From a virus, in the IMG/VR virus record IMGVR_UViG_3300044756_000026, positions 1 to 53,671 of that record: DNA of 53,671 bases, one strand, 5' to 3'. Positions 4,333 through 53,671 of the stretch are shown here, piece by piece. The translations under genes and the position numbers were made by a program. Below the pieces are notes generated by a model. That model had not been told where the DNA came from. It made no database searches and saw only the letters and a program-made list of their open reading frames with translations. The number at the start of each line of letters is the position of its first letter. The stretch's first letter is position 1.

Positions 4333-4864
4333 GGCTGCGTCATTCCCTGCAGCAGTCGCGGCACAAACATACTACGACGCGCTGAACCTCGAGTCCGACT
4401 TCGAGTCCGATGTGTACGAAGTTCCCGACTTGGCCAAACGACTCACCGGTACAGCTTGGTGGGCGACCGGTCAAGATGCCGCACTGGAGTTGATGAAGTC
4501 AGCTGGTGTCAAAGCAATTCATGACACGGCACGCGAGACGTTGATTCAGAACGTCAAGCGTGAAGGCGGCAAGTGGTTCAGGGAACCGAAAGAAGATACG
4601 TGCCCGTGGTGCCGCCTGCTAACCGTAAAGCCGAAGATCTATAAGTCTGATCATTTGTCGTGTGCGTCGCATTACGGGTGCACGTGTGATGTTGCCGTCT
4701 TGCGTCCTGGGATGACGCGAGAACGTCCGAAACATCATCGCGCGTGGGAACGTGAATACGAACGCGCACGGACAATGTCAGCGTCCGGTACAGTTGACGA
4801 CGTGGTTAACGCCTGGGGTCAATTGCTCAAGCAAGTTGACAATACCGGGCTAGCAAGTGCATAA
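4205..4864 (+). CDS. MuF-like minor capsid protein
   Basis: A 219-residue protein of the Mu gpF / SPP1 gp7 head-morphogenesis type, a minor head protein that associates with the portal. The C-terminal half carries the family signature: a CPWC pair near residue 135 followed about 20 residues later by HLSCASHYGCTCDV, a Cys/His arrangement that could bind a metal. The N-terminal half is helical. It overlaps the portal by 128 nt, a usual arrangement for this pair. Because no separate capsid protease is visible, this or a neighbouring protein would have to support head maturation if cleavage occurs. Confidence 0.8.
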   Translation: MDHNQYRLVLQRLEEVMVQGLWAAMDAYPLRRDLVEVLPEIVEAASFPAAVAAQTYYDALNLESDFESDVYEVPDLAKRLTGTAWWATGQDAALELMKSAGVKAIHDTARETLIQNVKREGGKWFREPKEDTCPWCRLLTVKPKIYKSDHLSCASHYGCTCDVAVLRPGMTRERPKHHRAWEREYERARTMSASGTVDDVVNAWGQLLKQVDNTGLASA

Positions 4865-4941
4865 TGACATTGTGACAACACGCGCTGCGGAATTTCGCGT
4901 TTCGTGTGCGCCCTTTCGCCGCACCGCGTAATTGTCGCAAC

Positions 4942-31335: not shown

Positions 31336-33709
31336 TCAACCATTCCTTCATAGTTCGACGAGAGCCAAATGCTTCTTCTGGCACCGGCGTGTTGGATCCC
31401 CAGTGTTTTCCGATTTGGAGATCGGCAACGAGGGGGATGGAGAGTTCGTAATCGAAGAGTTTCTTGAGTGGTGGATTCTCCATGGTGGTTTTGATGAGGG
31501 GGAGAACGTCAGGCAGTTCGTCATTTGGTACTTCGAAATTGATTGCGTCATGCACAGTACCAATTGGAATTGCTTTAAATCCACGTCGGCGAAACTCTCG
31601 GTCGAGAAGGACAAGAGAGAGAAGGCACATGTCAGATGCCATTGCTTGGACTGGCGAGTTGATAGCCTGCCGTTCAGCTTCATTCACGACCCCCTGCTCA
31701 TGAGACGCAATGTCGGGCAAGTGCCGGATGCGTCCCAGTGGTGTTTGCACTCGTTGGAATTTATGCACCAGTCTACGCTGACGACCATGCCAAGGAAGTA
31801 AATCAGGAAATTGATCGAAGAACGCCTTTCTCGCATGCTGTGCTTCAATCTCCGTAACCGTGAGTTCATACTTCTCCCAAGCAGTTTCAATGAATTTTCT
31901 CCATCCCATGCCATATAAAAATCCGAAGTTGACTGCTTTAGCTTTCTTGCGTTCCTCCTTAGTTATCTGACTGGTGGGCTTTCCGGTAAGCTGGACGGCC
32001 ATCGCCATGTGGATGTCTTCACCAAGTGCATACAACTTGCGCATGGTTCGCTCACCGGATAACTCCGCGGCGATGCGGAGCTCGATCTGAGAGTAGTCAC
32101 TTTCCACAAATGTCCAACCCGGCGGGGCTGAAAAAATACCTCGAACGAGCGGCTCTCGAGGCACCTGCTGGATATTGATGCCGCGCATTGTGGATGCTCG
32201 CGAACCAGTGACTTTGTCAGAATCGGCTTTCCCAGATGAGAGACGACCAGTAACAGTTCCAGCCAACTTGAAGGTCGTATGAAGACGACTATCCTCAGTG
32301 ACCAGTGCTTGATATGGATTGAAGAAACTACTTTCATACTTCTGCCACCGCACCCGTTCCAGTAGTAGCGGAATCACTCGATGTGAATCCTTGATGTGTG
32401 AAAGTGTCTGCTCTGACACTGATGGTCCGATCTTACCAACCTTCGTAATGGGCACCTGGAGATAATCATACAACCACCAGCGAAGGAAGTTCGAAGGATT
32501 GAAGTTGACGCTCTCAGCATATTCTTCTGGCACGTCGCGCATCAATCGACGATGTATGCGTGCAAGTTGTTTACGGACGTAATCAGCGCCTTGTATCAAC
32601 GCCTCTTGATCAACGTACGCACCGTGTCGTTCGATATGTACGAGAGATTGCGATGCTGGCATGATCAGCTTGTAGAACAGTCGTGCCACACGAGGATCCT
32701 CTTCGATCTGTTCCTTGAACAATCGGTATAGTCGCATCGTGTGCCAGGTATCGAGCGCGTTGTATCGCAGGATTTCTTTCAGTGGATACTGCTCGTACCA
32801 CGGTGGCTGGCCTTTGCCATTGTTGATCTTTATGTCCCACGGTTTTGCATCGAGAAGAAAGGTTGCAAGAGGCTTGAGGCCTTTCGGTCGATTCTCGTCG
32901 AGTATATGTGCCGCCAGCATGGTGTCGAAGTTGACGGGAACCGGACAGCCCACCTGACACATCCAACGACAATCAAACTTTGCATTGTGAGCGATACGCG
33001 TGGGGACCTTGCACATGGCCGTTGATATACGATGAAGAGGTTCGTACCATCCGTCAGCCCAGTGATAGCCTGGATGGGCGACGGGTAATACCCATGTGCG
33101 CATCTGTTTACCTTCGAGCAATGTAACTGCCAGCGAGACAACAAAAGCGCCGGGTACCAGTTCGTCAAAACCTGAAGTCTCCAAATCCCAGGCGCAGGCC
33201 TCAGCGCTGGAAAGCGCAGCGAGGAGTTCGTCAACTCTCTCTTGTGTATGGACGACACGTACAGTCTTGGGCTCATCTTCCTCTACCTCAACATCGTAGA
33301 CAGTTCGATACATGGCAGCAATGTCGCCTTGCAGCATGATCGCTTGGTGTGGGTTACGATCAACAGCGCCGAGTGCAATCGTCGGCATGACAGGAATGCC
33401 ATCATAGTCACCGACGTGTCCGCGATGTTTCATGATGCCTGAGTGTCCGAGCACAGTGAACAGTGCCTCGTTGCCGAGAGTGATGATGCCATCTACTGGT
33501 CGATGCTGTGCAAGCCTGTCGTAGAATCCAGCGCGTGCTTCTTTGAGGTCGGCCTTTGATTCGGTGATCGAGTCGTCATGTTCCGACCACACCCCCATGA
33601 ATATCAGCTTCGTATCCTTGGGGAATCTCTGACTCAACAACCTCTGTTGCAGTGTCGTCCGCGTCGTCCCGCGCGCTACGTATTTCGTCAAGATAATTAT
33701 CGTTGTCAT
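31313..33709 (-). CDS. DNA polymerase I (family A) with UDG-like N-terminus
   Basis: A 798-residue replicative polymerase. Residues 1-135 resemble a uracil-DNA-glycosylase-like fold (GIITLGNEALFTVLG, then GIMKHRG). Residues about 170-350 are a 3'-5' exonuclease (WDLETSGFD with Asp175 and Glu177, HNAKFD, YNALDT). Residues about 380-790 are the polymerase: ESDYSQIELR (motif A, near 537), KKAKAVNFGFLYG (motif B) and TVHDAINFE (motif C, near 719). The start overlaps the dCMP deaminase by 134 nt, so an internal start remains possible. Confidence 0.93.
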   Translation of the reverse strand: MTTIIILTKYVARGTTRTTLQQRLLSQRFPKDTKLIFMGVWSEHDDSITESKADLKEARAGFYDRLAQHRPVDGIITLGNEALFTVLGHSGIMKHRGHVGDYDGIPVMPTIALGAVDRNPHQAIMLQGDIAAMYRTVYDVEVEEDEPKTVRVVHTQERVDELLAALSSAEACAWDLETSGFDELVPGAFVVSLAVTLLEGKQMRTWVLPVAHPGYHWADGWYEPLHRISTAMCKVPTRIAHNAKFDCRWMCQVGCPVPVNFDTMLAAHILDENRPKGLKPLATFLLDAKPWDIKINNGKGQPPWYEQYPLKEILRYNALDTWHTMRLYRLFKEQIEEDPRVARLFYKLIMPASQSLVHIERHGAYVDQEALIQGADYVRKQLARIHRRLMRDVPEEYAESVNFNPSNFLRWWLYDYLQVPITKVGKIGPSVSEQTLSHIKDSHRVIPLLLERVRWQKYESSFFNPYQALVTEDSRLHTTFKLAGTVTGRLSSGKADSDKVTGSRASTMRGINIQQVPREPLVRGIFSAPPGWTFVESDYSQIELRIAAELSGERTMRKLYALGEDIHMAMAVQLTGKPTSQITKEERKKAKAVNFGFLYGMGWRKFIETAWEKYELTVTEIEAQHARKAFFDQFPDLLPWHGRQRRLVHKFQRVQTPLGRIRHLPDIASHEQGVVNEAERQAINSPVQAMASDMCLLSLVLLDREFRRRGFKAIPIGTVHDAINFEVPNDELPDVLPLIKTTMENPPLKKLFDYELSIPLVADLQIGKHWGSNTPVPEEAFGSRRTMKEWLNVRSSHN

Positions 33710-34130
33710 CGCCCTTTTTCCCTATCACTAAATTATACACACCCACACCTCCTCCATGCAAAAGGACGAGACCGTCACGATTGCGATACTCTCGAACGTA
33801 CGTGACCTTCGATACGCCGGCATTCAGCATGAGTCCGGCACAGTAATAACATGGCGAGTCGGTGCATATGAACTCGCATCCGTTGAGTGCGACACCGGTA
33901 CGTGCTGCCCACACGATTGCGTTGGCTTCAGCGTGTATCGCTCGAGCACAAATCTCTGATGGCGGGTGCGTGCAATGAGCCATGTGAATCGGCACACCGT
34001 TGTATCCCATGCTCAAGATGCGCCCGTCGTGTACCGCTAGCGCGCCTACTCGTAATCGCGTGCATGTCGAACGTGCGGCGATAACGAAGGCAATCTCCAT
34101 CAGCGTGTCTAGGCGTGTGGGACGAGTCAT
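33576..34130 (-). CDS. dCMP deaminase
   Basis: A 184-residue zinc deaminase that converts dCMP to dUMP. The zinc site is complete: HAEAN (His66, Glu68) and SPCYYCAG (Cys94, Cys97). The fold follows the family up to about residue 125; the C-terminal 50 residues are acidic and low complexity and overlap the polymerase gene. The ATG at 34130 overlaps the upstream stop codon (ATGA) and has GGAG 8 nt ahead, better than the upstream TTG at 34142. It feeds dUMP to the adjacent thymidylate-synthase-like enzymes. Confidence 0.9.
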   Translation of the reverse strand: MTRPTRLDTLMEIAFVIAARSTCTRLRVGALAVHDGRILSMGYNGVPIHMAHCTHPPSEICARAIHAEANAIVWAARTGVALNGCEFICTDSPCYYCAGLMLNAGVSKVTYVREYRNRDGLVLLHGGGVGVYNLVIGKKGDDNDNYLDEIRSARDDADDTATEVVESEIPQGYEADIHGGVVGT

Positions 34131-34855
34131 TGAAATCTCCAAACGTCGTTGGTGAACAGGTGCAAGTTTGAGATGAACACTGTAAGGTTACCTACGATTG
34201 GCCACTCCCCAGTACAAGTCTTTGACTGTACCCACTGAAGTAATCTTCCGGTGAGATAGACATCGTTAAGGAAATGCCTCGTGAGGTCACACGAGCGAAT
34301 GAAATAGTTGCAGTCCAATAACCCGCCGTTCCTGATGAAATGGTAACCGAGCGAACAGGGCACTCGTTGTCCGTGCCGAGTTCCCGTGTCTTCAGGAAAA
34401 TAAACGGGAAGGTAAGCCTGGCGGGTCCAGGTATCAGCAGCGAGCAGCGCGACAACATCTCTAAGGTTTCCTCCGACACTGGCATCTGGCCAATATCGTT
34501 CGGGGTAGGTGTGGTCAAACTTTTCCTTCTTCCCTTCGCGCATGAATCGGTCAGCGTTCTTCTTACTGTGCCACGGCCAGATGTCATACGATGGCGGCGG
34601 ATTCAACGGTATGCCTGACACACGTTCAGAGAAGTGAATGTCCGCCCAAGGAAGATCCGGTGAGCACATCTCCTGCCATGATTTGACTAACGGTGGCACG
34701 GAACATGTCAATATGACATTCGCCAGTTCGTGTGCCGGGCTTGGTGCCGCAGTAGACTGCCACGAATTCCGATCCACGGGTGTATGCTGGAGCAACTGCG
34801 TCACTAAATGGCTCCGGTAATGTGCTGGACATACAGAGGTAGATGTCTGGAACAT
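34127..34855 (-). CDS. Thymidylate-synthase-family protein 1
   Basis: A 242-residue enzyme of the thymidylate synthase / pyrimidine hydroxymethylase fold. It retains the catalytic cysteine (VPCSLGYHF, Cys167), the phosphate-binding IRSCDL (Arg187-Asp190) and the base-contacting pair in FLNDVY (Asn197-Asp198). It would methylate or hydroxymethylate dUMP or dCMP at C5. A second, more diverged relative lies directly upstream (34,855-35,757). Which pyrimidine and which one-carbon product it makes cannot be read by eye; the Asn-Asp pair needs comparison with known hydroxymethylases. Confidence 0.82.
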   Translation of the reverse strand: MFQTSTSVCPAHYRSHLVTQLLQHTPVDRNSWQSTAAPSPAHELANVILTCSVPPLVKSWQEMCSPDLPWADIHFSERVSGIPLNPPPSYDIWPWHSKKNADRFMREGKKEKFDHTYPERYWPDASVGGNLRDVVALLAADTWTRQAYLPVYFPEDTGTRHGQRVPCSLGYHFIRNGGLLDCNYFIRSCDLTRHFLNDVYLTGRLLQWVQSKTCTGEWPIVGNLTVFISNLHLFTNDVWRFQ

Positions 34856-35757
34856 TAGTCCGGTATGCCAATCTTCTCGAGCCCCAGATCCACAACAGGA
34901 GTCGACGGAAGAGGCGGATAAGCACGATTGTCGGGTGTCTCAAATCGCCGGGCGAACTCGTGACCGTAACGTTCCGTACACCATCGTTTTCTGGGACGCT
35001 GGTAGGAGCGGTAGGGCGACATGCCAGAATAAAGTAACCCCGTCTCATTCATCTCTCGCCATCTCGTGTATTCGCGGTAAGCTCGTTGTATGCCTGGATA
35101 TTCGGCAAGTTGATTATCTTGTTCAAGAGTGCGCGCGATACCAACAAACCGTCTCGTTTCCCGCTTGTCTCCGAGGGGATAGGCAATTGTACGGAATCTG
35201 TGATACTGGACGGTCTCGATGAACCAGGTAAATTGGAAGTTGTCAACAGACAGTCCGAGACGCTTTGCGGCATGACGTGTAAGGTGATAAGCAACTGCCA
35301 TATCGAGAGCAGATAGATAGCCCATGTAGGAGGCCCGGGAATGCAGAAGTACGTGCGGGTGGGGGACGACCGAAAGTGATAGGCTAAGCATACACGATCC
35401 AAGGTTTCGGACACGGGCTTTTCCGACCCCTCGAGGCTGAACAAGATTGGTCCGATACACCATCCGATCAGGGTTTTTACCAGCACCTCGTCGTTCAACA
35501 AGCTCAAGCCAATCATTGACTGAGTCGCCATGTAGATATTGTCGTACCATTGTTGTCCACCGCGAGCGGGGAATCCAGAGTCTTCGAATATCGTGGTCAA
35601 ATTCCATTCGCTCCGCGGTTCCATATACGTGCTCCAATACCACATCAGTGTTCGTGATAGCATCGTAGGAATCACGGTGCCCGTACAGTACTTTGTCGCA
35701 GATAGCATCGTGCAGCTCATGCATTGTCGCTGCTTGGATGAGGTGTGGTTCATGCAT
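34855..35757 (-). CDS. Thymidylate-synthase-like protein 2 (diverged)
   Basis: A 300-residue protein that appears to share the TS fold. NLGSCMLSLSLSV supplies a cysteine (Cys122) 19 residues before an arginine (SRASYMGYLSALD, Arg141). These match the Cys-to-Arg spacing of 20 in the neighbouring enzyme and an Asp at the equivalent last position, but the usual Asp of R-S-x-D is replaced. FIETVQYHRFR resembles the TS segment that precedes the second nucleotide-binding histidine/tyrosine. It may act on a modified or unusual nucleotide. Overlaps of TGATG and TAATG show tight coupling. Confidence 0.6.
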   Translation of the reverse strand: MHEPHLIQAATMHELHDAICDKVLYGHRDSYDAITNTDVVLEHVYGTAERMEFDHDIRRLWIPRSRWTTMVRQYLHGDSVNDWLELVERRGAGKNPDRMVYRTNLVQPRGVGKARVRNLGSCMLSLSLSVVPHPHVLLHSRASYMGYLSALDMAVAYHLTRHAAKRLGLSVDNFQFTWFIETVQYHRFRTIAYPLGDKRETRRFVGIARTLEQDNQLAEYPGIQRAYREYTRWREMNETGLLYSGMSPYRSYQRPRKRWCTERYGHEFARRFETPDNRAYPPLPSTPVVDLGLEKIGIPD

Positions 35758-36413
35758 CAGTAGCCCACGTGCTGGCGTTGTGCATTGATGAACGCCTTTC
35801 TGAAGTACGAGGTAAATACCTCGAGCGGTTCGACGCCGGCGATGAGATGCAGTTCAATGAAGAAATGCCACACGTCAGCCAGTTCTTCTACGAATGCTTC
35901 ACGGTCTGTTTCTACATGCGTCTGCTTCCATGGTTTGTTCTTGAGGTGATTGATGGCCTCGTATAACTCCTCAACCGTGTAGCCTGCAAATTCTCGAATC
36001 GCTGCCTGTACGCGGGGCGTGTCGATGTTACCCCGTTCGTGCGTCTGGATATTCGCGGCCGGATTGATTTCCGCATAGTTCGCCATGTGACGAAATTGTT
36101 GGGCGAACATAGTGCAAAGGATATCGGGAACTGAGAGATCAGATGTGGTTCCGGAACCATCATCCCAGATTTCATCAAAGTCATCCGTACTCGGCGTCCA
36201 CGGTATGTTGAGCCGTACAGAATTTGGCGGTCGAACTCCCTCGCCATTGCCATAGCCTGGCTCTCTTGCACTGCTCTTAGGAAGGCGAGCGTCGTTCGCT
36301 CGAACTCCTCCAACGCTTCCGTGTTGATCCGGATCGTCACTGCTATTTGACGTGGCACCATCCTTAATTTCCTTGGGGATTTGTTGTCCTGGTGAATGTT
36401 CTTTGGTGGTCAT
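35757..36413 (-). CDS. MazG / dUTPase-2-like nucleotide pyrophosphohydrolase
   Basis: A 218-residue protein. The C-terminal 125 residues match the all-alpha NTP pyrophosphatase layout: YEAINHLKNKPW after EEL, then EELADVWHFF with the E-E-x-x-D metal-binding pattern, then a helix IAGVEPLEVFTSYF. This superfamily includes dimeric dUTPases and MazG. The N-terminal 90 residues are low-complexity and probably disordered. The ATG at 36413 with GGAAAG upstream is preferred to one at 36440. Beside dCMP deaminase and two TS-like enzymes it probably hydrolyses dUTP or another dNTP. Confidence 0.75.
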   Translation of the reverse strand: MTTKEHSPGQQIPKEIKDGATSNSSDDPDQHGSVGGVRANDARLPKSSAREPGYGNGEGVRPPNSVRLNIPWTPSTDDFDEIWDDGSGTTSDLSVPDILCTMFAQQFRHMANYAEINPAANIQTHERGNIDTPRVQAAIREFAGYTVEELYEAINHLKNKPWKQTHVETDREAFVEELADVWHFFIELHLIAGVEPLEVFTSYFRKAFINAQRQHVGY

Positions 36414-36951
36414 GCTTCTGGGCTTTCCAATACTTTCCATCTGTGGCTGTAAGCTGATCTGCTAAACTCAAGTCACCCGCTCGCCCGTGTGTGTAATCAT
36501 ACGTGACTGCTGCGCCACGCCAGAACAAGCGTTGCATGAGGTAACCCTCATATATCTTGTCGATGTATTGTACCACCCCTTCCATCTGTTGTTCTTGTTC
36601 TATGTTATGCTTAATCTTTTCAAGTGGCGGTAGACACCAGATGACCAGCGAGTTGTTGGCGATGCGCTGTCGGATGACTGCCATGCTCGGCTTGAGAAAG
36701 TCGGTGTTCACGTGACGTGTGGGAATGGTGCTGCCGTACACGTACTCCGAGATGATCGGGTGTCGATCATGTACGCAGTGTGTGGGATGATCACGGACAC
36801 TCCTATACACTCGCTCGGCAATGTCTGGGTACGGTCCTTCAACGCTGCGCGTGAAACGTTCGTGGATTTCAAGACCTGGATACAGATGCTGGAGCAGACT
36901 GATGAGCGTAGTCTTTCCTGCTCCGTCCGGACCTTCAACAATAATGCTCAT
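36364..36951 (-). CDS. P-loop deoxynucleoside monophosphate kinase
   Basis: A 195-residue kinase resembling thymidylate kinase. The P-loop is GPDGAGKT at residues 7-14, HDRHPIISE matches the DR-x motif of dNMP kinases, and a lid-like charged helix follows. It would phosphorylate dTMP or a modified dNMP produced by the TS-like neighbours; a DNA-level kinase acting on hydroxymethyluracil bases is a known alternative for P-loop proteins in such clusters. It overlaps the helicase stop codon by ATGA and the next gene by 50 nt. Confidence 0.8.
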   Translation of the reverse strand: MSIIVEGPDGAGKTTLISLLQHLYPGLEIHERFTRSVEGPYPDIAERVYRSVRDHPTHCVHDRHPIISEYVYGSTIPTRHVNTDFLKPSMAVIRQRIANNSLVIWCLPPLEKIKHNIEQEQQMEGVVQYIDKIYEGYLMQRLFWRGAAVTYDYTHGRAGDLSLADQLTATDGKYWKAQKHDHQRTFTRTTNPQGN

Positions 36952-41347: not shown

Positions 41348-41391
41348 TGTGTGTCTGTGTGTGTATGTCGTCGTCATTATCATTTATCATT

Positions 41392-41423
41392 ATCACACCC
41401 GTATATATATACGGGGGTGTGAT
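41392..41423. repeat. AT-rich hairpin, possible origin or terminator
   Basis: The perfect 18-bp palindrome CCCGTATATATATACGGG (41398-41415) is extended by ATCACA and TGTGAT with a two-G bulge. It stands in a 124-bp non-coding gap with GT repeats and ATTATCATT repeats just upstream (41,375-41,395). It follows the primase-helicase gene and lacks a T-run, so an unwinding or origin element is as likely as a terminator. Confidence 0.6.
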
Positions 41424-41471
41424 GAATGATGAAATTCTAACAGACAACCTCCACACCGGAAGGGTGATAAG

Positions 41472-47173: not shown

Positions 47174-47281
47174 ATGTTGGCACACTCCGTTCTGGAACTG
47201 TTCTTAGTATTCGACTGCGGTGTAGGTGTGGGAGTGTTCGTTGTCTGGCTCGGATTCTGGTGGGGGAAGCGGCGAAAGTGA
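47174..47281 (+). CDS. Tiny membrane protein
   Basis: A 35-residue protein with a single strong transmembrane helix (VGVGVFVVWLGFWWG) and a basic GKRRK end, starting 4 nt after the previous stop codon. It could be a minimal holin or other membrane peptide; no holin was found next to the lysins. The ribosome-binding site is weak. Confidence 0.5.
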   Translation: MLAHSVLELFLVFDCGVGVGVFVVWLGFWWGKRRK

Positions 47282-47340
47282 GGACGCGTCCGTACACCAT
47301 GGGCTAAACCCAGGACGTGTACTTCTCACCATAGGCCGAT
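47278..47340 (+). repeat. Dispersed repeat copy B, double
   Basis: GTGAGGACGCG at 47278 begins a partial copy with CACCATGGGC (47295-47304). A full copy follows at about 47,311-47,340 (GGACGTGTACTTCTCACC, then ATAGGCCGA), very close to copy D at 52,778-52,803. Confidence 0.65.
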
Positions 47341-47505
47341 GTGGTTCCAAAATGCGGGTATCAGCAGCGCACACGATGGCCAGCACGGCCTATACGGCCA
47401 CATACATCATATATATGCGCGATGCGCGCGCGATCCTGAATGGTGGCTTAAAGTGGTAGCGGCATTGGGATGACGTGACTCAGCTTAATGACATATAATC
47501 GCGTT
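47282..47505. other. Non-coding region with repeats and promoter
   Basis: No credible gene in 224 bp. It contains repeat copy B, an AT-rich ATATATAT stretch near 47,410, GCGCGATGCGCGCGCGATC (47,417-47,435), the element AAAGTGGTAGCGGCATT (47,450-47,466) shared with 50,600, and the promoter for the gene at 47,506. Confidence 0.6.
47470..47499 (+). promoter_or_regulatory. Promoter, family copy 4 (leaderless gene)
   Basis: TGACATATAAT, with TATAAT at 47494-47499 and a weak -35 (ATGACG, 47470-47475) 18 bp upstream. The ATG of the next gene begins seven bases after the box, exactly where transcription should start. Confidence 0.75.
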
Positions 47506-47850
47506 ATGACGAACACACGAACCGAACGCACGAAATACCTGGATCCCATCATCACGGAGTTCAGCTTGTATGACATGTCAGCCGCCGATGAATCTGACCC
47601 CGATCCAATCTACGTCGATGCGCGCAATGCCTCCGACCACATCGGCGGAATGATCTCTTTGCGTAATCACATCGCGTACAACGAACTCCGCCTGATCGAA
47701 CAAAAGGAATGGGGTTCGCACGACGAGGCACGTTACGAATTGTGGAACGTGGGTGTGCCCGTTGCTATCCTGTGCCTCGCAACGATGCCGCGCGACGTGT
47801 ACGAAGAAGCCAACGCCCCCGAACAGTTCGCCGACCTCGAAGGAGAATAA
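47506..47850 (+). CDS. Hypothetical protein, leaderless, ESDPDP family
   Basis: A 114-residue acidic protein. An ADESDPDPIYV segment is shared with the protein at 50,656 (SEESDPDPVHH), and the surrounding helical pattern also matches, so the two are diverged paralogs. The start is set by the promoter: an upstream in-frame ATG at 47488 lies at the -10 box and cannot be transcribed. No ribosome-binding site is needed for a leaderless mRNA. Function unknown. Confidence 0.7.
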   Translation: MTNTRTERTKYLDPIITEFSLYDMSAADESDPDPIYVDARNASDHIGGMISLRNHIAYNELRLIEQKEWGSHDEARYELWNVGVPVAILCLATMPRDVYEEANAPEQFADLEGE

Positions 47851-47854
47851 CGAC

Positions 47855-48040
47855 ATGGACATGGTACGCATCGAAGGCAAGCAGCTCGAGAACCTGATCG
47901 ACACGTTGACGCGATACAAGGAGGCAACGGGTCGTGATCCGTATCTCCTCCGTATCGCATGGCAAGGCGAATCCGTGTTGATGAAGGTCAACGAAGGATT
48001 GTGGTCCGCTCCGATGGGAACGAAACAGGAGGCATATTAA
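47855..48040 (+). CDS. Small hypothetical protein
   Basis: A 61-residue protein (helix then strands; DTLTRYKEATGRDPYLLRIA in its centre). AAGGAG at 47840 precedes the ATG. Not recognised. Confidence 0.62.
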   Translation: MDMVRIEGKQLENLIDTLTRYKEATGRDPYLLRIAWQGESVLMKVNEGLWSAPMGTKQEAY

Positions 48041-48042
48041 TC

Positions 48043-48204
48043 ATGGGATATTACGAACCCGATGAGGTTGACGAATGTCCGTGCGCGAACGATGAGCCGT
48101 GTTGGGCACATCCCGATCTCGAACGATGGGCAGCTCTGTTCCAAGAAGTCCCGAACGATTACGACGAGGAATCAAGATTCATCAGAGAAGAGGCGATGAC
48201 GTGA
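48043..48204 (+). CDS. Small Cys-containing acidic protein
   Basis: A 53-residue protein with ECPCANDEPCWAHPDLERW, a three-Cys/His cluster that could bind metal, and an acidic helical end. AGGAGG precedes the ATG at 48043. It overlaps the next gene by 4 nt. Confidence 0.65.
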   Translation: MGYYEPDEVDECPCANDEPCWAHPDLERWAALFQEVPNDYDEESRFIREEAMT

Positions 48205-48647
48205 ACACGACGCGGAGATGTACGCAATGCGGAGAGTTGTGTGAGCTGCTCGATGATGCGAGGATGTGGACCGAACTGTTATCCAATTGTCACACCGCTC
48301 CCGTCGTGTGGGATAGACCGCATGTGACAGGCGATCACTTAGCCGCCATCAACATGATCGCCATTCTCCAACCGTTGTGCGCACAGTTCTCGCGCGATCA
48401 CGGAAACGTTCCGTTGAAATACAATCCGTATTTCTCGATGATGGAAGGATTGGAAGAGAAACTGCCTGATGAGGCAAAGAGTTACCACTGCAAGGTACAC
48501 GGGTGGAACGCGATATTGACCACGAAGCGGAACAAGGACACCATTCCGTATTCGGAAGGTGACGTCGAATGCGCGGCGTGCCTCGAGCAAGATGAGACCG
48601 CACATGATACCTGTGTGTGGGGACAGGAGATTGACGACAAATCATGA
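48201..48647 (+). CDS. Hypothetical Cys-rich protein
   Basis: A 148-residue protein with a GTG start overlapping the previous stop codon. Cys sites CTQCGELC (residues 7-14), CKVHGW and CAACLE suggest one or two zinc sites; the centre is helical (LAAINMIAILQPLCAQF). No recognised family. Confidence 0.65.
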   Translation: MNTTRRCTQCGELCELLDDARMWTELLSNCHTAPVVWDRPHVTGDHLAAINMIAILQPLCAQFSRDHGNVPLKYNPYFSMMEGLEEKLPDEAKSYHCKVHGWNAILTTKRNKDTIPYSEGDVECAACLEQDETAHDTCVWGQEIDDKS

Positions 48648-48940
48648 ACGACCGCGAAATGCTCTCAACCAAGATGCGGCGTACCACGTCGTGGAAACAC
48701 ATCGCAGCCCGTGATGCAACGATTCCCGACATGCCGCACGTCGGCTCCATGTTGTTCACGCGTACGTGGTACAACGAGAGGGATGCGCGTGTGATCGTGG
48801 GTGAGTTCGACCAAGACAAAGGATTCTTTGCAGCTCGCATGTATCACGCGGAAAAGGGACTGTCGTACGGCGTACGTGATCAGGAAGTAGCCGGCGCGTA
48901 CGTCATGTCGCAGGTCCTCGAGTGGATAGGTGAATCCTAA
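48644..48940 (+). CDS. Hypothetical protein
   Basis: A 98-residue protein coupled to the previous gene by ATGA. Strand/helix alternation (SMLFTRTWYNERDARVIVGE) gives a compact alpha/beta look; no cysteines or membrane segment. Unknown function. It is the last gene before the promoter at 48,958. Confidence 0.62.
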   Translation: MNDREMLSTKMRRTTSWKHIAARDATIPDMPHVGSMLFTRTWYNERDARVIVGEFDQDKGFFAARMYHAEKGLSYGVRDQEVAGAYVMSQVLEWIGES

Positions 48941-48957
48941 ACCAGTTCCGTACGAGG

Positions 48958-48987
48958 TTGAACAATCTGAGCTGTTTACGATATAAT
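48958..48987 (+). promoter_or_regulatory. Promoter, family copy 5
   Basis: TTGAAC (48958-48963), 18 bp, TATAAT (48982-48987), GACGCG, then the leader AACGCACACACACGAAAGGA and the ATG at 49020. Confidence 0.85.
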
Positions 48988-49019
48988 GACGCGAACGCAC
49001 ACACACGAAAGGAACGCAC

Positions 49020-49286
49020 ATGCCAAGAACCCAACGCGTTGATGACGTACGCGACGAGGACGGATACATCATACAGGGAGGATATTCGTTTTGGGAATGT
49101 GAACGATGCGGAGAAGAGGTACGCCGCTATCGTGGACAAGGCGATGTGAGCTGTCACAAATGCGATGCGCAATACAACGCGTCGGGTCAACGGTTGCGTG
49201 ACAACTGGAGAGACAACCGATCGAACTACGATGACGACGTCTCCGACATGGACGGATACGAAGATTCACTGGCAGGAGATTACTGA
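49020..49286 (+). CDS. Conserved small zinc-ribbon protein
   Basis: An 88-residue protein with CERCGEEV and CHKCDAQYNASGQRLRDNW; the second knuckle with its following NASGQRLRD wording recurs in small proteins of many actinobacteriophages, as I recall. The end is acidic (DMDGYEDSLAGDY). It is likely a zinc ribbon; role unknown. Confidence 0.75.
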   Translation: MPRTQRVDDVRDEDGYIIQGGYSFWECERCGEEVRRYRGQGDVSCHKCDAQYNASGQRLRDNWRDNRSNYDDDVSDMDGYEDSLAGDY

Positions 49287-49288
49287 TC

Positions 49289-49465
49289 ATGAGCTACTGT
49301 GAAGATTACCCGTGTTGTGGGCACACGCCACAGGATCCGTGTGAACGGCAATGGTACGATGAGCCGGACGCGTTCGACACGACGAAGAATCCGCATGCTC
49401 TGTGCGATCATGAAAACGGAGAGTGCGACGTGGAATACTACGACGAGGATGAGGAATACGCTTGA
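49289..49465 (+). CDS. Conserved small CGH-motif protein
   Basis: A 58-residue acidic protein opening with MSYCEDYPCCGHTPQDPC, a Cys/His cluster I recognise from many small actinophage proteins of unknown function, followed by a second Cys pair and an Asp/Glu/Tyr tail. AGGAG lies 10 nt upstream. It is likely a metal-binding peptide. Confidence 0.75.
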   Translation: MSYCEDYPCCGHTPQDPCERQWYDEPDAFDTTKNPHALCDHENGECDVEYYDEDEEYA

Positions 49466-49548
49466 GCCTCTGGATCCGCGTGCGCATCAAAACTGTCCTG
49501 CTCGTATTAGGTTTGATCGAGGATCGGTTCGTGGATGAGAATGATTGA
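49462..49548 (+). CDS. Possible micro-ORF
   Basis: A 28-residue frame from TTG overlapping the previous TGA; hydrophobic and basic first half (VRIKTVLLVLGLI), acidic end. GAGG lies about 9 nt upstream. Too short to be certain. Confidence 0.3.
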   Translation: MSLWIRVRIKTVLLVLGLIEDRFVDEND

Positions 49549-49624
49549 GATTCTAGGATTTGGAGTTTATTCGATCACGTTGGTTGCGTGTGGGATAATC
49601 ATCACTCTCCGAAACACGGGTTGA
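49535..49624 (+). CDS. Possible tiny membrane peptide
   Basis: A 29-residue frame that is essentially one transmembrane helix (ILGFGVYSITLVACGIIITL) and a short polar end. It overlaps the micro-ORF upstream and ends at the -35 box of the next promoter. Confidence 0.4.
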   Translation: MRMIEILGFGVYSITLVACGIIITLRNTG

Positions 49625-49650
49625 TCCACTGGAGCTGAATGACATATAAT
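49621..49650 (+). promoter_or_regulatory. Promoter, family copy 6
   Basis: TTGATC (49621-49626), 18 bp, TATAAT (49645-49650) inside TGACATATAATGACGTG, then AACGCACACACACGAAAGGA before the ATG at 49683. Its core is nearly identical to copies 5 and 8. Confidence 0.85.
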
Positions 49651-49682
49651 GACGTGAACGCACACACACGAAAGGATGACAA

Positions 49683-49991
49683 ATGCCGAAACAAGCCGAC
49701 AACGATTTCCGTCGTTATGATCGTGCGACGATGATCCGTTCCAACGAACGCCTCGACGATACGTTACGCGCGATGATCGCTGAGCTTCTCGAAATCCTCG
49801 AACACGACAATTTGTCGCAGCTCATACAATGGTCGAGGAAAGTCTCCGCCGCGATGAAACGTGGGAACAGGCGACAATCAGCCGCGTTGCATGTGTTGTT
49901 GATCCTCGCGACACAATCCGACGAGGGAGATACCCGCAAACGAATCTCCGACGACGTGCGTGCATTCGGGCGCGCCTTGAATGTGATGTGA
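49683..49991 (+). CDS. Hypothetical helical basic protein
   Basis: A 102-residue protein, predicted nearly all helical (DDTLRAMIAELLEILEH, SAALHVLLILATQSDE), basic overall. It has a good promoter and AAAGGA. No family recognised. Confidence 0.68.
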   Translation: MPKQADNDFRRYDRATMIRSNERLDDTLRAMIAELLEILEHDNLSQLIQWSRKVSAAMKRGNRRQSAALHVLLILATQSDEGDTRKRISDDVRAFGRALNVM

Positions 49992-49995
49992 GCTG

Positions 49996-50115
49996 ATGTT
50001 ACACGAGATCTTCCACATGTGTATGTGTATGGGATTCGGCATGTGTGTCGAATGTGCAGGAAAACAAATTATCAGGAAGGTAAAGGAATGCAATTCACGC
50101 GTACGAGCCAACTGA
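49996..50115 (+). CDS. Possible Cys/Met-rich small peptide
   Basis: A 39-residue frame five bases after the previous stop codon. The first half is dense in Met and Cys (HMCMCMGFGMCVEC), the second half basic. The composition could indicate metal binding. It overlaps the better-supported gene at 50,088; no good ribosome-binding site. Confidence 0.3.
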   Translation: MLHEIFHMCMCMGFGMCVECAGKQIIRKVKECNSRVRAN

Positions 50116-50297
50116 CTGGTGTGGAGCACACGATGGAGGTGAACTGCACACAGGAACAATGGAATGAATATCTGGGTGGGCATAAGCTGATCCAGAACAT
50201 CATGCCCGACGTGCCTGCCGAACAACGAGAATTCCTCATGACAGGCATCACGCCTGATGAATGGGATACGTACGTGGGTGATGGCGATGAGGATTAG
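50088..50297 (+). CDS. Conserved small protein
   Basis: A 69-residue acidic protein whose wording (SQLTGVEHTMEV, EQWNEYLGG, EFLMTGITPDEWDTYVGD) matches a family of small proteins I recall from actinophages, small plasmids and microvirus-like genomes. Function unknown. AAAGGA precedes the ATG. Confidence 0.72.
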   Translation: MQFTRTSQLTGVEHTMEVNCTQEQWNEYLGGHKLIQNIMPDVPAEQREFLMTGITPDEWDTYVGDGDED

Positions 50298-50469
50298 AGT
50301 TCAATTCACGGTTGAGGTTGATCCTGATTTGTACATCGAGAAGTTCTTGTTGCCCGATGATGTGCGTGCCGACGTACGGCTCCACGTGAACAATCAAGCC
50401 ATCGACCATGTCATGTACAGCTGTCACGACAATGGCGTGCCAATCCAATTGATCTCACACAATTGTTGA
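50281..50469 (+). CDS. Hypothetical small protein
   Basis: A 62-residue protein beginning AMRIRVQFTVEVDPD, a beta-rich start followed by an acidic helix; start ATG 50281 or 50287. It overlaps the previous gene by 17 nt. A perfect inverted repeat follows the stop codon. Confidence 0.6.
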   Translation: MAMRIRVQFTVEVDPDLYIEKFLLPDDVRADVRLHVNNQAIDHVMYSCHDNGVPIQLISHNC

Positions 50470-50474
50470 CGTCA

Positions 50475-50540
50475 TCCCTAGGCGACCATGCATATGCGAC
50501 GACACGATGACACACGCAAACGTCACTGGTCGCCTAGGGA
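50475..50540. repeat. Perfect 14-bp inverted repeat
   Basis: TCCCTAGGCGACCA (50475-50488) and its exact complement (50527-50540) flank a 38-nt loop. The arm itself contains the palindrome CCTAGG. There is no T-run. The region 50,470-50,655 has no gene; besides this repeat it holds AAAGTGGTAGCGGCAT (50,600-50,615) and a promoter. Confidence 0.8.
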
Positions 50541-50619
50541 CGCACACACACGATCCGACGCACGTCTTGGTTGCACGTGTCGCGCGACGTGCGCATCCGA
50601 AAGTGGTAGCGGCATCTGG

Positions 50620-50649
50620 TTGTATATTGTGAGCCGCTTGACATATAAT
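50620..50649 (+). promoter_or_regulatory. Promoter, family copy 7 (leaderless gene)
   Basis: TTGTAT (50620-50625), 18 bp, TATAAT (50644-50649), six bases ACGTGT, then the ATG at 50656, where transcription should start. Confidence 0.78.
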
Positions 50650-50655
50650 ACGTGT

Positions 50656-50934
50656 ATGACGAACACATACGCAGCCGACTTTTATTCGTACGCGCAATCC
50701 GAGGAATCCGATCCGGATCCTGTGCATCACGTGCAAGCCGATACCGTCGGTGAGCTCTTGTTCCTGATGAACGAACTCCTCGATCCGATGTTCACGAACA
50801 TCTCTTACAAATTCATCGACAACGACGACACAACCGAAAACTCATTCCGCCTACAAGCCGTGTCTCCGATTGACGAACGAACTCTCCAAATCAATGGTGT
50901 GGTCGACGTGTACGAATTGAAGGATGGAGAATGA
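50656..50934 (+). CDS. Hypothetical protein, leaderless, ESDPDP family
   Basis: A 92-residue acidic protein paralogous to the one at 47,506: both begin MTNT, both have ESDPDP, and both are predicted leaderless from matching promoters. The C-terminal half differs more. The start is fixed by the promoter; longer upstream readings run through the promoter and inverted repeat. Function unknown. Confidence 0.72.
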   Translation: MTNTYAADFYSYAQSEESDPDPVHHVQADTVGELLFLMNELLDPMFTNISYKFIDNDDTTENSFRLQAVSPIDERTLQINGVVDVYELKDGE

Positions 50935-51152
50935 TGCGGGTAGCCCTTGCATTGATCGCATTGTGTTTAGCCACTGCGCCACATGCGAATGCGAAGCCAA
51001 CGATCTGTGATCAACTATCCGCGGCATCTTCTGTAGAGGATGTGTGGAACATATTCGTTGAACATGGCGCACAGAAGGTTGCGGATACAGCCCACGAATC
51101 ATGCCCCGAGCATGGCCTGAAAATCATTGCCGCATTGAAGGCATTTGAATGA
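50931..51152 (+). CDS. Small secreted protein
   Basis: A 73-residue protein with a signal peptide (MRVALALIALCLATAPHANA) and a mature part of about 50 residues with two cysteines (ICDQL, ESCPEH), likely one disulfide. The layout resembles short DUF732-type mycobacterial secreted proteins, though the match is weak. It overlaps the previous gene by ATGA. Confidence 0.65.
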   Translation: MMRVALALIALCLATAPHANAKPTICDQLSAASSVEDVWNIFVEHGAQKVADTAHESCPEHGLKIIAALKAFE

Positions 51153-51209
51153 CCCGCGGGGAGCCTGACATTTTCGATCCGCGGGCAGCCTGACATCCGA
51201 AAGAGGTTG

Positions 51210-51239
51210 TTGCGCATTCTGAGCCGCGTGACATATAAT
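51210..51239 (+). promoter_or_regulatory. Promoter, family copy 8
   Basis: TTGCGC (51210-51215), 18 bp, TATAAT (51234-51239) in TGACATATAATGACGTG, leader TACGCACACGAACGAAAGGA, ATG 51274. Upstream, 51,153-51,200 carries two direct copies of CCGCGGG-AGCCTGACAT. Confidence 0.85.
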
Positions 51240-51273
51240 GACGTGTACGCACACGAACGAAAGGAATACGAAT

Positions 51274-51822
51274 ATGCTCCTGAACCAATTCCGCGAAAAG
51301 GGTTCGTTCCACCCGACGCCTCAAACGACTGAGCTGCTGCGCATGTTGGATATAAACTTCCAGCGAGCCGCACATAACAAATACGGGGAGGTCCTGTTGC
51401 ATGAGTTCGCCTACCGCAACGTACGAGACCTGATCGGCCTCTCACATTTGTATGGCGGGCAGTACCTGTCGAATGACGGGATCGACGAATTCTGCAATGA
51501 CATTGAAGCCGTGCTCTTCCTTGATTTCGCAGAAGAGCTGTACGCGTGTTATTGCGACGACGAGGATATCAAGGATCCGGAGAGCGTCGGGTATCGTGAA
51601 TTCTCCACGAACGTTGATGTGGCACAAGCCACGTTGAAGAACCTGCGGGAGCTTGACATCGACGTGCTGAAGCTGTGTGCCGACATACGCCCGTTGTATT
51701 TCGACAGCCTGTTCGATGACAACATATCGGGGCAGACCTACACATTCGACGGAGAGACCGACGCCATCGACTTGATCGAAGCCATCGTCAACAAAATCAT
51801 CGCACGCCTGCAGACAGCCTGA
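51274..51822 (+). CDS. Hypothetical acidic protein
   Basis: A 182-residue, strongly acidic, helical protein (LYACYCDDEDIKDPESVGY in its centre; ETDAIDLIEAIVNKIIARL at the end). It is the largest gene in the last 8 kb and has a strong promoter and AAAGGA. An in-frame ATG at 51238 lies within the -10 box and is excluded. No known family; the acidity could indicate a DNA-mimic or protein-binding role, which is speculative. Confidence 0.7.
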   Translation: MLLNQFREKGSFHPTPQTTELLRMLDINFQRAAHNKYGEVLLHEFAYRNVRDLIGLSHLYGGQYLSNDGIDEFCNDIEAVLFLDFAEELYACYCDDEDIKDPESVGYREFSTNVDVAQATLKNLRELDIDVLKLCADIRPLYFDSLFDDNISGQTYTFDGETDAIDLIEAIVNKIIARLQTA

Positions 51823-52099
51823 CACCACACACCACCGCGCGGGTAGCTCCGTGCGTGTGGGTTAGGTTGGGCGGCTCCGCGGCGGCTCACCGCACCAGAC
51901 CCAGGAGCGGTCACCACACCACGGGCCAAACCCCAGACGGACTCACCACACCATGGGCCGATCCAACAACACCAACACGTGCGGGAGCCCTGCGCGGCAG
52001 CCCTGTGCGGAGCCCCTGCGGCAAGGCCTGGGGTGGCTTGTGTGCGGCGTTCAGCGGGAGCGGCTTAAAGTGGTGCGTGACATGTGCGGCTGCGTACGA
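51823..52099. other. GC-rich non-coding repeat region
   Basis: No credible gene. Three copies of a TCACCACACCAYGGGCC-type unit lie at 51,886-51,962 (the first degenerate), related to the dispersed repeat. They are followed by four GCGG-AGCCC-type units at about 51,980-52,030 and the element CGGCTTAAAGTGGTGCG (52,061-52,077), which resembles sequence before promoter copies 4 and 7. Confidence 0.6.
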
Positions 52100-52105
52100 T
52101 ATAAT
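52077..52105 (+). promoter_or_regulatory. Promoter, family copy 9
   Basis: GTGACA (52077-52082), 17 bp, TATAAT (52100-52105) in TACGATATAAT, six bases, then ATG 52112 at the predicted transcript start. It reads in frame into the secreted-protein gene, whose own ATG at 52160 has GGAAGG upstream. Confidence 0.75.
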
Positions 52106-52159
52106 AAATACATGCGCGAAACACACACAGAGATCACGCGCACACGGAAGGAAACACAC

Positions 52160-52531
52160 ATGAAGGCTCTTGTAATCGCAACGTGCGCGGTGGCCGCGTC
52201 ATTGTCGTTCGCATCGCACGCGTACGCACAGCCCGACGACGATGCCTACGAACGAGAGATGACAATCAAGCTCTCGCAAATCGCGGACGAGATCGACGAC
52301 ATCCCGACGTGCATGATGGAAGACGGCTCCGACGTGATACCCGCGCACGGTGGCCGTTGTTTGTGGATGAACGACGGGAACACGTGGTTGACATACGAGG
52401 ATCGTTCGTTCCTCATCGTGGATGATTCCGTCGTGTCGGCTCCGCGCGTCGTGTGTTCGACGTACGGCCGATGCGATTTGTACGACGACGGAGCCTTCGA
52501 ACAAGGCACGTTCGTCGGAGGGTACAACTAA
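52160..52531 (+). CDS. Secreted protein with disulfide potential
   Basis: A 123-residue protein with a clear signal peptide (MKALVIATCAVAASLSFASH, cleaved near AYA-Q), followed by an acidic domain with four cysteines (TCMMED, RCLWM, VVCSTYGRC). The mature fold is probably beta-rich and extracellular. The ATG at 52160 with GGAAGG is preferred; a leaderless start at ATG 52112 in the same frame would add 16 polar residues and spoil the signal peptide. A perfect terminator follows. Confidence 0.72.
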   Translation: MKALVIATCAVAASLSFASHAYAQPDDDAYEREMTIKLSQIADEIDDIPTCMMEDGSDVIPAHGGRCLWMNDGNTWLTYEDRSFLIVDDSVVSAPRVVCSTYGRCDLYDDGAFEQGTFVGGYN

Positions 52532-52549
52532 CACGCGGAAACGGAAAGG

Positions 52550-52569
52550 CGGGCGCAAGCCCGTTTTTT
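52550..52569 (+). terminator. Rho-independent terminator
   Basis: CGGGC, loop GCAA, GCCCG, then six T. Textbook form, 18 nt after the stop codon of the secreted-protein gene. Confidence 0.92.
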
Positions 52570-52628
52570 CGTGCGCAACGAACCACACGCAAGCCGCGCG
52601 GGCGGTTGAACGCGAACGGAGCCAGACG

Positions 52629-52967
52629 TGTGACGTGGATCACATGCGGCCCTCGGCCAGCGGCGGCAAGGTCGGGGCTCCGCGGCGGGAGGTTTTCAGA
52701 CGGCGGGCGGTGGCCACACAGCGGCGAGCGGAGCGGCGGGGGGAGCTGCGCGGCGGCGGCGGAAAACGGCCAGAGTGAGGACGCGAGCTTCTCACCACAG
52801 GCCATTTAACGGAGGGGCGCGGATTCGGGGGGTCGAAAAAGGGGCGCGCGCGGGCGGGTGTGACGTGGGTCACAGGGCTGTGATGTGGGTCACACGCGCG
52901 GATGGAATGTGACGTGGGGCACATCGGGGGCGCATTGTGACGTGGGGCACATGTGACGTAGCACACA
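52629..52967. promoter_or_regulatory. Cluster of six CRP/GlxR-like sites
   Basis: Three perfect TGTGA-N6-TCACA sites begin at 52629, 52859 and 52879, two with GCACA in the right half at 52908 and 52936, and one degenerate site at 52952. The N6 spacer is also conserved (CGTGG followed by A or G in four). The region 52,570-52,961 has no gene; it is very GC-rich and also holds repeat copy D at 52,775-52,803. Confidence 0.75.
52775..52803 (+). repeat. Dispersed repeat copy D
   Basis: GTGAGGACGCGAGCTTCTC followed by ACCACAGGCC; 21 of 25 bases from GGACG onward match copy B at 47,312-47,336. Non-coding context. Confidence 0.65.
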
Positions 52968-53001
52968 CATGCGAATGTCGTTGTGCGCGTGCATATCATG
53001 A

Positions 53002-53007
53002 TATGAT
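53002..53007 (+). promoter_or_regulatory. -10 box, promoter family copy 10
   Basis: TATGAT, six bases, then ATG 53014 followed by CAACGCACACACACACG, the family leader motif. The -35 would be TCGTTG (52978-52983, 18 bp). It lies just downstream of the last CRP-like site. Confidence 0.7.
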
Positions 53008-53013
53008 CGTGTC

Positions 53014-53085
53014 ATGCAACGCACACACACACGACGCGCGCGTTGCATCGTCGTGCGCACACACGCGCGACGCGTCACGAAATGA
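53014..53085 (+). CDS. Leaderless Arg/His/Thr-rich micro-ORF
   Basis: A 23-residue frame beginning at the predicted first transcribed base (MQRTHTRRARCIVVRTHARR). Its stop codon lies one base before the next start, so it could deliver ribosomes to a downstream gene that cannot have a Shine-Dalgarno sequence. It may be a leader peptide or simply the 5' untranslated region. Confidence 0.45.
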   Translation: MQRTHTRRARCIVVRTHARRVTK

Positions 53086-53086
53086 A

Positions 53087-53485
53087 ATGACACACGAAAT
53101 GACAAACGCAAAATCGACAAACGCACGCACGACACGCACGCGCACGACGCGCAAATCGAACGTCGTCGCAACGCGTGACGCACGCGCAAACGCAATCGCG
53201 TCGCGTGTCGCGTACATCATGCGCGTTGACGCATCAACGATTGACGATGCGTTGATCGCACACGTTGACGCGCAATTGACGCAACGACGCGTTGATGCGC
53301 ACGTGATCAACGACGCGCAATTGCGCGACATGATCATTGCGTTCACGAACAACGACAACGTTCGACGCGTGTACGAAAATCACGATGCGTGTTACGCGTC
53401 GAACGCACACGACAAATCGAAAATCGCACGCGCGAAATGTCGTCGTGAACGTCGTGCGCGCATCGTGAACGACGCGACGAAATGA
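53087..53485 (+). CDS. Hypothetical basic protein lacking Gly, Pro and Trp
   Basis: A 132-residue, Arg/Ala/Asn/Asp/Thr-rich protein; an N-terminal Thr/Arg region (residues 8-30), then helices (RVAYIMRVDASTIDDALIAH, QLRDMIIAFTNNDNVRRVY) and a basic end (KIARAKCRRERRARI). Codons are limited by the dinucleotide rule: only AAA for Lys, CAA for Gln, GAA for Glu, TTG for Leu, CGN for Arg, TCN for Ser. The start is ATG 53087 or 53099. The helical pattern suggests a folded, possibly nucleic-acid-binding protein. No family recognised. Confidence 0.65.
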   Translation: MTHEMTNAKSTNARTTRTRTTRKSNVVATRDARANAIASRVAYIMRVDASTIDDALIAHVDAQLTQRRVDAHVINDAQLRDMIIAFTNNDNVRRVYENHDACYASNAHDKSKIARAKCRRERRARIVNDATK

Positions 53486-53565
53486 TCGACGAATTTGTCG
53501 ACACGCGCGACGACGTGATCGACATGTTGATGCGCATACGCGACGCGCACAACGACGACGAATAA
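53482..53565 (+). CDS. Acidic micro-ORF at right end
   Basis: A 27-residue acidic peptide (DEFVDTRDDVIDMLMRIRDA) coupled by ATGA to the previous gene and obeying the same dinucleotide rule. It ends 28 nt before the terminator stem. Its acidity complements the basic protein upstream, as in some small partner pairs; that is only a suggestion. Confidence 0.5.
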   Translation: MIDEFVDTRDDVIDMLMRIRDAHNDDE

Positions 53566-53593
53566 CGTTCGCGCACAACACAATTGAATAACA

Positions 53594-53634
53594 CGTAACG
53601 CGCATGACGAATTATGTTGTGCGCGTTACGTTTT
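53594..53634 (+). terminator. Rho-independent terminator at right end
   Basis: CGTAACGCGCA (53594-53604) pairs perfectly with TGCGCGTTACG (53620-53630), followed by TTTT and further T-rich sequence. The right arm can also pair with an upstream arm at 53570-53585 to form an alternative hairpin. Confidence 0.88.
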
Positions 53635-53671
53635 CATTTGTGTGTATGTCAAGACATTACGTCAATCGAAT

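Follow-up and report, generated by a model that had tools for sequence, protein, structure and literature searches.

The stretch of DNA analysed here (the window, 53,671 nt at its full length) is an actinophage contig of 53.7 kb, whose genes include those for terminase, portal, capsid, tape measure, DNA polymerase A, a Sak4-like protein and a helicase. Near its right end the contig carries a small predicted transcription unit lying in a tract that is devoid of the dinucleotides AG, GG, CC and CT. The preliminary description had recognised a promoter, a terminator and adjacent reading frames in this place, and each of these elements was recovered. The features of the unit and the sites that precede it are the following:

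52629-52644, + strand: CRP-type site TGTGACGTGGATCACA, exact consensus
52859-52874, + strand: CRP-type site TGTGACGTGGGTCACA, exact consensus
52879-52894, + strand: CRP-type site TGTGATGTGGGTCACA, exact consensus
52908-52923, + strand: CRP-type site TGTGACGTGGGGCACA, one mismatch
52936-52951, + strand: CRP-type site TGTGACGTGGGGCACA, one mismatch
52952-52967, + strand: CRP-type site TGTGACGTAGCACACA, one mismatch, adjoining the promoter
52961-53652, + strand: tract without AG, GG, CC or CT, by direct count (185.5 such steps expected)
53002-53007, + strand: -10 box TATGAT, read from the sequence
53014-53085, + strand: ORF1, 23 aa, beginning at the predicted +1 (from the ORF list)
53087-53485, + strand: ORF2, 132 aa, the main protein, without Gly, Pro or Trp
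53381-53452, + strand: H-C-H-C-type actinophage motif HDACYASNAHDKSKIARAKCRRER in ORF2, common to JacoRen57 and to Gordonia and Streptomyces phage genes
53482-53565, + strand: ORF3, 27 aa (from the ORF list)
53593-53631, + strand: intrinsic terminator-like stem of 17 pairs (fold z -4.4), made of allowed steps only and followed by TTTTC

The ATG is found 7 nt past the end of the -10 box, so the mRNA of the unit is predicted to be leaderless, and the same layout is present in the Mycobacterium phage JacoRen57. Leaderless mRNAs need no Shine-Dalgarno sequence. The longest + strand reading frame of the tract exceeds those of Markov sequences carrying the same ban (p 0.03), and an Rfam search gave sub-threshold matches only. 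Upstream of the unit, TGTGA-N6-TCACA, the CRP/GlxR consensus, occurs three times exactly and three times with one mismatch, whereas a shuffled genome of the window's size holds about one copy with at most one mismatch. Judging from these sites, the unit is likely under the control of the host cAMP-CRP protein.

Within the phage collection, the window phage is closest to phages of cluster AB (Mapvirus) and to a Rhodococcus phage, with TerL identities of 69% to JacoRen57, 65% to ReT1v, 65% to NoShow and 63% to Muddy. Its core genes are collinear with those of cluster AB members, and this collinearity, with the high identity, would place the phage in Mapvirus / cluster AB. Cluster AB phages are considered lytic, and NoShow has an 11-nt 3' overhang at cos (PMC10586156). 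The cluster AB overhang CGGAG(A/G)GGCTT occurs as a close variant at the right end of JacoRen57, while the window contig ends without it; therefore, the contig, whose tract had been placed near the genome end, probably ends before cos is reached, and the tract may continue. Elsewhere in the window, a nucleotide-pool block on the - strand (33576-36951) encodes a dCMP-deaminase domain, a dUTPase domain and homologues of the JacoRen57 thymidylate synthase and thymidylate kinase, as well as a conserved protein of 300 aa that belongs to PHROG 13667, a family of unknown function. Additionally, a 54-column near-perfect inverted repeat with 85% identity to its own reverse complement (41383-41433) sits between the gene of a predicted primase-helicase and the right arm.

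The dinucleotide ban and its counterpart in JacoRen57

By direct count the run without AG, GG, CC and CT extends from 52961 to 53652 (692 nt), bounded by an AG at 52960-52961 on the left and another at 53652-53653 on the right, which bears out the earlier claim of 690 bp at 52962-53651. None of the banned steps is present, against 185.5 +/- 9.8 expected from shuffles of the tract's own bases. Such a zero run has a log10 P of -75 if banned steps occur as often as in the whole genome (0.221 per step) and of -62 if they occur as often as in the neighbouring right-arm block, and the second-longest run of this kind in the window is only 43 nt. Chance is thus ruled out as the cause by the shuffles and by the log10 P of -75. 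The ban begins 53 nt 5' of the start codon and stops about 20 nt past the terminator stem, so that its edges match the transcription unit, as had been proposed. The codon count also agrees with what was described, since Gly, Pro and Trp codons are absent and Lys, Gln, Glu and Leu are encoded by AAA, CAA, GAA and TTG only.

A second case was found in JacoRen57 (MK279840), a cultured Mycobacterium phage of cluster AB with a finished genome. Its tract of 530 nt (51707-52236) ends 175 bp from the right end of the genome and contains a single banned step (AG at 51813) against 131.5 expected from shuffles, with zero CC, CT and GG. The order of elements is the one seen in the window, with -10 boxes at 51764 and 51877, the ATG at 51889 and a terminator-like hairpin, and the full ban covers the unit from promoter to terminator. 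Both right ends share a predicted leaderless unit, CRP-type sites (in JacoRen57, one-mismatch copies at 51714 and 51824), the same protein motif and an AG/CT-poor block to the left; they differ in tract length (530 vs 692 nt), in their ORFs except for the motif, and in the block, where GG/CC is nearly normal in JacoRen57. The two tracts are 93% identical over a 42-bp stretch spanning the ARAKCRRE codons and align poorly otherwise. An artefact of assembly, which had been named as a possible refutation, is ruled out by this nearly identical ban in a cultured and finished genome. The ban is therefore real, exact, far beyond chance and recurrent in an independent genome. Literature searches on dinucleotide avoidance in phages yielded no published precedent, in line with what the preliminary description had stated, but JacoRen57 carries the same pattern, apparently unnoticed.

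In NoShow (ON108645), the gp79 locus occupies the same right-end place, with an exact CRP-type site at 51900 upstream of its counterpart of the unit and a similar start of the reading frame; unlike the two tracts, it has ordinary dinucleotides, and AG/CT is just mildly low at the end. No such tract was present in the parts covered of Muddy, FF47, ReT1v, BearBQ, MAnor, SteamedHams, Cozz, CMP1 and Margaret. Searches of viral contigs with the tract proteins and a shared 19-mer found nothing, a degenerate motif pattern run on viral and genome contigs returned unrelated loci only, and searches with the promoter pattern found no further members. Relaxed blastn in phages gave JacoRen57 as the only match above noise, and plasmid searches gave nothing convincing. 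A search with a conserved right-arm protein reached one contig only, whose right end is that of Muddy. The examples of such tracts are two, the window and JacoRen57.

Apart from the ban, the composition of the tracts is well described by a maximum-entropy model that takes as inputs only the ban and the base margins. The one clear exception is TA, at 0.53 of expectation in the window tract and 0.28 in that of JacoRen57. Selection for alternating purine-pyrimidine DNA, Z-prone or flexible, had been proposed as a cause and could appeal to the 75% of tract steps that alternate (fraction 0.747), but the ban alone predicts 76% (0.764), and GA/TC, AA and TT are not avoided, so the suggestion fails and we give it a negligible probability. 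In this sense, the tract sequence is otherwise free, with no demand for alternation or Z-DNA. A history of CpY-to-TpY deamination is not supported either, as Ser, Leu and Phe are low instead of enriched and there is no excess of TT, TC, AA or GA. Evasion of restriction sites finds no backing in the allowed palindromes CGCG, GCGC, GATC, TCGA and CATG, which are near expectation in both tracts. Unstructured RNA was also discarded as a cause: the fold of the tract RNA reaches -233 kcal/mol vs -169 for mono-shuffles, being more structured than these and equal to Markov shuffles.

As for the encoded protein, the motif of JacoRen57 (SHANCDHDNTKNARAKCRRE) is also found in small Gordonia and Streptomyces phage genes and in the N terminus of the NoShow SprT-like protease. 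It is present in the window protein too, where the second and third ligands stand five residues further apart. JacoRen57 gp73 matches PHROG 1342 (E 3.6e-5) and PHROG 18656 (E 1.2e-4), both families of unknown function, while window ORF2 had no significant PHROG match, PHROG 1342 included. ORF2 has the core of the SHxxCxH..TKxARAxCRR motif that goes with these families in actinophages, whose other members, in contrast, lie in ordinary DNA, as do all the Gordonia, Streptomyces and NoShow copies. Since homologous motifs elsewhere lie in ordinary DNA, the protein family does not require the ban, which belongs to the locus. Given its H-C-H-C spacing, the motif may be a small module that binds metal or nucleic acids. 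The single-sequence model of ORF2 is helical (mean pLDDT 66), and fold searches with it gave nothing significant. In the Streptomyces phage KimJongPhill (50000-82521) the motif appears in seven separate reading frames, mostly small leftward genes, and looks like a multi-copy actinophage module.

An AG/CT-poor block and two layers of avoidance

The unit is the last element of a wider region in which AG and CT are scarce. The features of this region are:

47264-47337, + strand: repeat at the left edge of the block (families D14 and D16), coinciding with the change point
47334-52960, no strand assigned: block of small genes that is poor in AG/CT, where most genes have a TATAAT-type promoter of their own (change point at 47334; per-gene AG/CT 0.46-0.80; promoter repeats)
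52761-52803, + strand: second copy of the left-edge repeat (families D14 and D16), just upstream of the tract
52880-53671, + strand: 793-nt run without CC or CT, up to the contig end (flank CY low by shuffles)

In the window, AG/CT steps fall at the change point from 11.0% on the left to 7.8% on the right, and in JacoRen57 the change point at 47909 separates 12.6% from 4-5%. Per gene, AG/CT lies at 0.93-1.28 of expected left of the edge in JacoRen57 and at 0.16-0.59 right of it, with a depletion that grows stronger toward the genome end; genes to the right of the window edge have 0.46-0.80 of expected. The depletion of the window block is milder than that of JacoRen57 and its GG/CC is also somewhat low, whereas in the JacoRen57 block GG/CC is near normal, AG/CT being avoided and GG/CC hardly. 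AG is avoided in all NAG and AGN contexts. The exact ban is specific to the tract, as had been described, but AG/CT is depleted across the adjacent 5-6 kb. Most genes of the block carry their own TATAAT or TATGAT promoter, and the block is probably an immediate-early domain, to judge from its gene and promoter arrangement. The tetranucleotide CCGG is found 4 times in window 47334-52800 against 22.6 expected, and 13 times in the JacoRen57 block against 23.5.

The depletion is seen on both strands and in every codon phase, inside and outside coding DNA. In the JacoRen57 block, non-coding sense DNA has AG at 0.39 and CT at 0.35 of expected, equal to the coding depletion, and the codon 3-1 junctions have 0.28 and 0.36, respectively. 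Because non-coding DNA and junctions are as depleted as coding DNA, the constraint acts on DNA and not on codons; codon usage is ruled out as a cause, and the constraint on DNA claimed for the tract finds support in the JacoRen57 right arm.

Both block edges fall at repeats that recur near the tract. The window repeat has a weaker copy at 51900-51963, in addition to the two listed, and the JacoRen57 repeat CC[AG]TGTAATTCC is present at 47920, 47941, 51384 and 51409, with inverted copies at 51579, 52269 and 52325. These sharp edges at repeats in both phages, and a block gene content that differs between the two, would be expected of a horizontally acquired module whose odd composition came from a past genome or mutation process and is now drifting. 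However, drift would refill a two-step ban fast, and 0 and 1 violations in diverged copies need present selection; moreover, the substitutions are not of a single type, and no source of such composition was found by relaxed blastn in phages or in plasmids. We consider an acquired module quite improbable.

In the flanks adjoining the unit, AG/CT drops to 0.21-0.33 of expected and GG/CC is at 0.89-1.31. On the + strand, CC/CT is nearly absent there (CY counts of 1 vs 10.7, 1 vs 11.8 and 1 vs 5.8 expected from shuffles) and GG is back to about normal. The strand symmetry of the ban, as first reported, thus holds within the tract but not in its flanks. Taken together, the avoidance has two layers: AG/CT is avoided across the genome end, and the added absence of GG/CC tracks the transcription unit, in the window from about -53 to a little beyond the terminator.

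Possible causes of the ban

Tentatively, and with considerable doubt, we favour selection on double-stranded DNA to escape a reader of 5'-RG-3' in the genes that enter the cell first, the tract being the first counter-gene. The fuller version, held with still more reserve, is that a new actinobacterial agent would read the two-base signature 5'-RG-3' on incoming double-stranded DNA and that the lineage would have purged its immediate-early domain, almost entirely so in one counter-gene unit. As the terminase genes are at the left end, like in lambda, the right end would enter the cell first and hold the immediate-early genes. An agent reading 5'-RG-3' in double-stranded DNA, AG more strongly than GG, would act as soon as infection begins; it might be a nuclease of a defence system or a PAM-like reader, and RG would therefore be purged from first-entering DNA and hardly elsewhere. 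The terminal unit would be transcribed at once from its leaderless, CRP-controlled promoter, and its small H-C-H-C-motif protein may counter the agent, which in our proposal is why the unit would tolerate almost no RG site. That the right end enters first, that the unit is expressed early and that its protein counters a defence are inferences.

What speaks for an escape from an RG reader is that matching positions of two diverged genomes hold 0 banned steps where 185.5 are expected (window) and 1 where 131.5 are expected (JacoRen57), together with the sharp-edged AG/CT-poor block in both phages and the low AG/CT of the flanks. The pattern also fits what selection on DNA would leave, since all alternatives replace the lost steps and protein composition gave way. 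Against it stand GG and CC, normal in the flanks and nearly normal in the JacoRen57 block, so that this part follows the unit and not the end, and the explanation does not fully cover both layers; the small number of examples, two, also weighs against it. To our knowledge, no defence reads a bare AG step, and an agent reading RG would for this reason be new; likewise, we know of no RG-reading agent in M. smegmatis mc2 155, on which JacoRen57 grows. Evasion of an RG-reading agent, already put forward in the preliminary description, still stands as a candidate, but an NGG-type PAM does not suit it, given the normal GG/CC of the flanks and an arm in JacoRen57 that hardly avoids these steps. Avoidance of CRISPR PAMs resembles the ban in that a very short double-stranded motif is avoided on both strands, and differs in that known PAM loss is partial and GG/CC is normal in the window flanks. 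Furthermore, we know of no PAM that equals AG alone.

The first-entering DNA of T7 is exposed to defences and avoids sites, and in the T5 pre-early region, too, the pressure is limited to the genes that enter and are expressed first. The likeness to the window phage ends there, as restriction sites or spacer targets are avoided in those phages and a bare two-base step is absent in this one. Also in favour of the proposed escape, a T5-like phage is halted by intercalators after first-step transfer (PMC13250531).

The limits of the GG/CC layer would also be expected if the constraint acted on the transcription template, a binder, modifier or damage at RG/CY steps (a natural-product DNA binder, an adduct or a bound protein) blocking RNA polymerase, so that the first unit would have to lack these steps wherever the polymerase touches the DNA. 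The full ban reaches in the window from about -53 to slightly beyond the terminator and covers promoter to terminator in JacoRen57. In addition, small molecules that bind DNA are known to serve actinomycetes as a defence against phages at the stage of early gene expression (PMC13250531). Nevertheless, AG/CT is also avoided in flanks expected to be untranscribed, there is no known natural agent with exactly such specificity, and no base-modifying enzyme domain, for 7-deazaguanine or methylation, matched in the genome among four families searched (PF01702, PF01555, PF00145 and PF06508). Overall, a polymerase roadblock explains the unit-limited GG/CC layer better than the escape from an RG reader and the flanks worse, and we regard it as unlikely.

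The asymmetry of the flanks, which lack CY and not GG on the + strand, would in turn fit a sense transcript and a longer antisense one, both exposed to an endoribonuclease that would cut at RG (antisense RG being CY on the + strand) and that early transcripts, the terminal one above all, would have to survive. MazF-resistant ACA-less genes, used in the laboratory for single-protein production, are an analogue in which a gene lacking the motif of the nuclease is expressed although other RNA is cleaved; there, however, the motif is one of RNA and the genes are engineered, whereas the phage ban hits both strands, the promoter and non-coding DNA. AG at 0.39 and CT at 0.35 in the non-coding DNA of the block would need antisense RNA everywhere, promoter DNA 5' of the start is included in the ban, and no antisense promoter was identified. 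An RNase accounts better for the flank asymmetry and worse for the symmetric non-coding depletion, and evasion at the RNA level appears to us distinctly unlikely.

The banned dinucleotides also match the purine-G primer starts of several DnaG primases, so that a tract without CT or CC as template would be unprimable on either strand. We find this reading very improbable, as there is no known reason for primer-free early genes over several kilobases and the phage has its own predicted primase-helicase.

A strict dinucleotide ban over a whole natural transcription unit in two diverged phages points to a strong selective force that no system known to us explains. A defence reading two bases only, or a chemical weapon doing so, could be behind it. 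The growth of JacoRen57 on M. smegmatis makes the question directly testable.

Two further observations concern the ends of actinophage genomes. The last 175 bp of JacoRen57 before cos (4738-4912 of piece 47500-52411) are extremely G-rich on the + strand, with runs of 6-9 G, a possible G-quadruplex and GGAATTCGG-type repeats. Additionally, among the right ends of ten actinophages, most have their lowest AG/CT, or nearly so, in the final 500 bp (0.64-0.86), which may reflect a general weak trend of falling AG/CT toward actinophage right ends.
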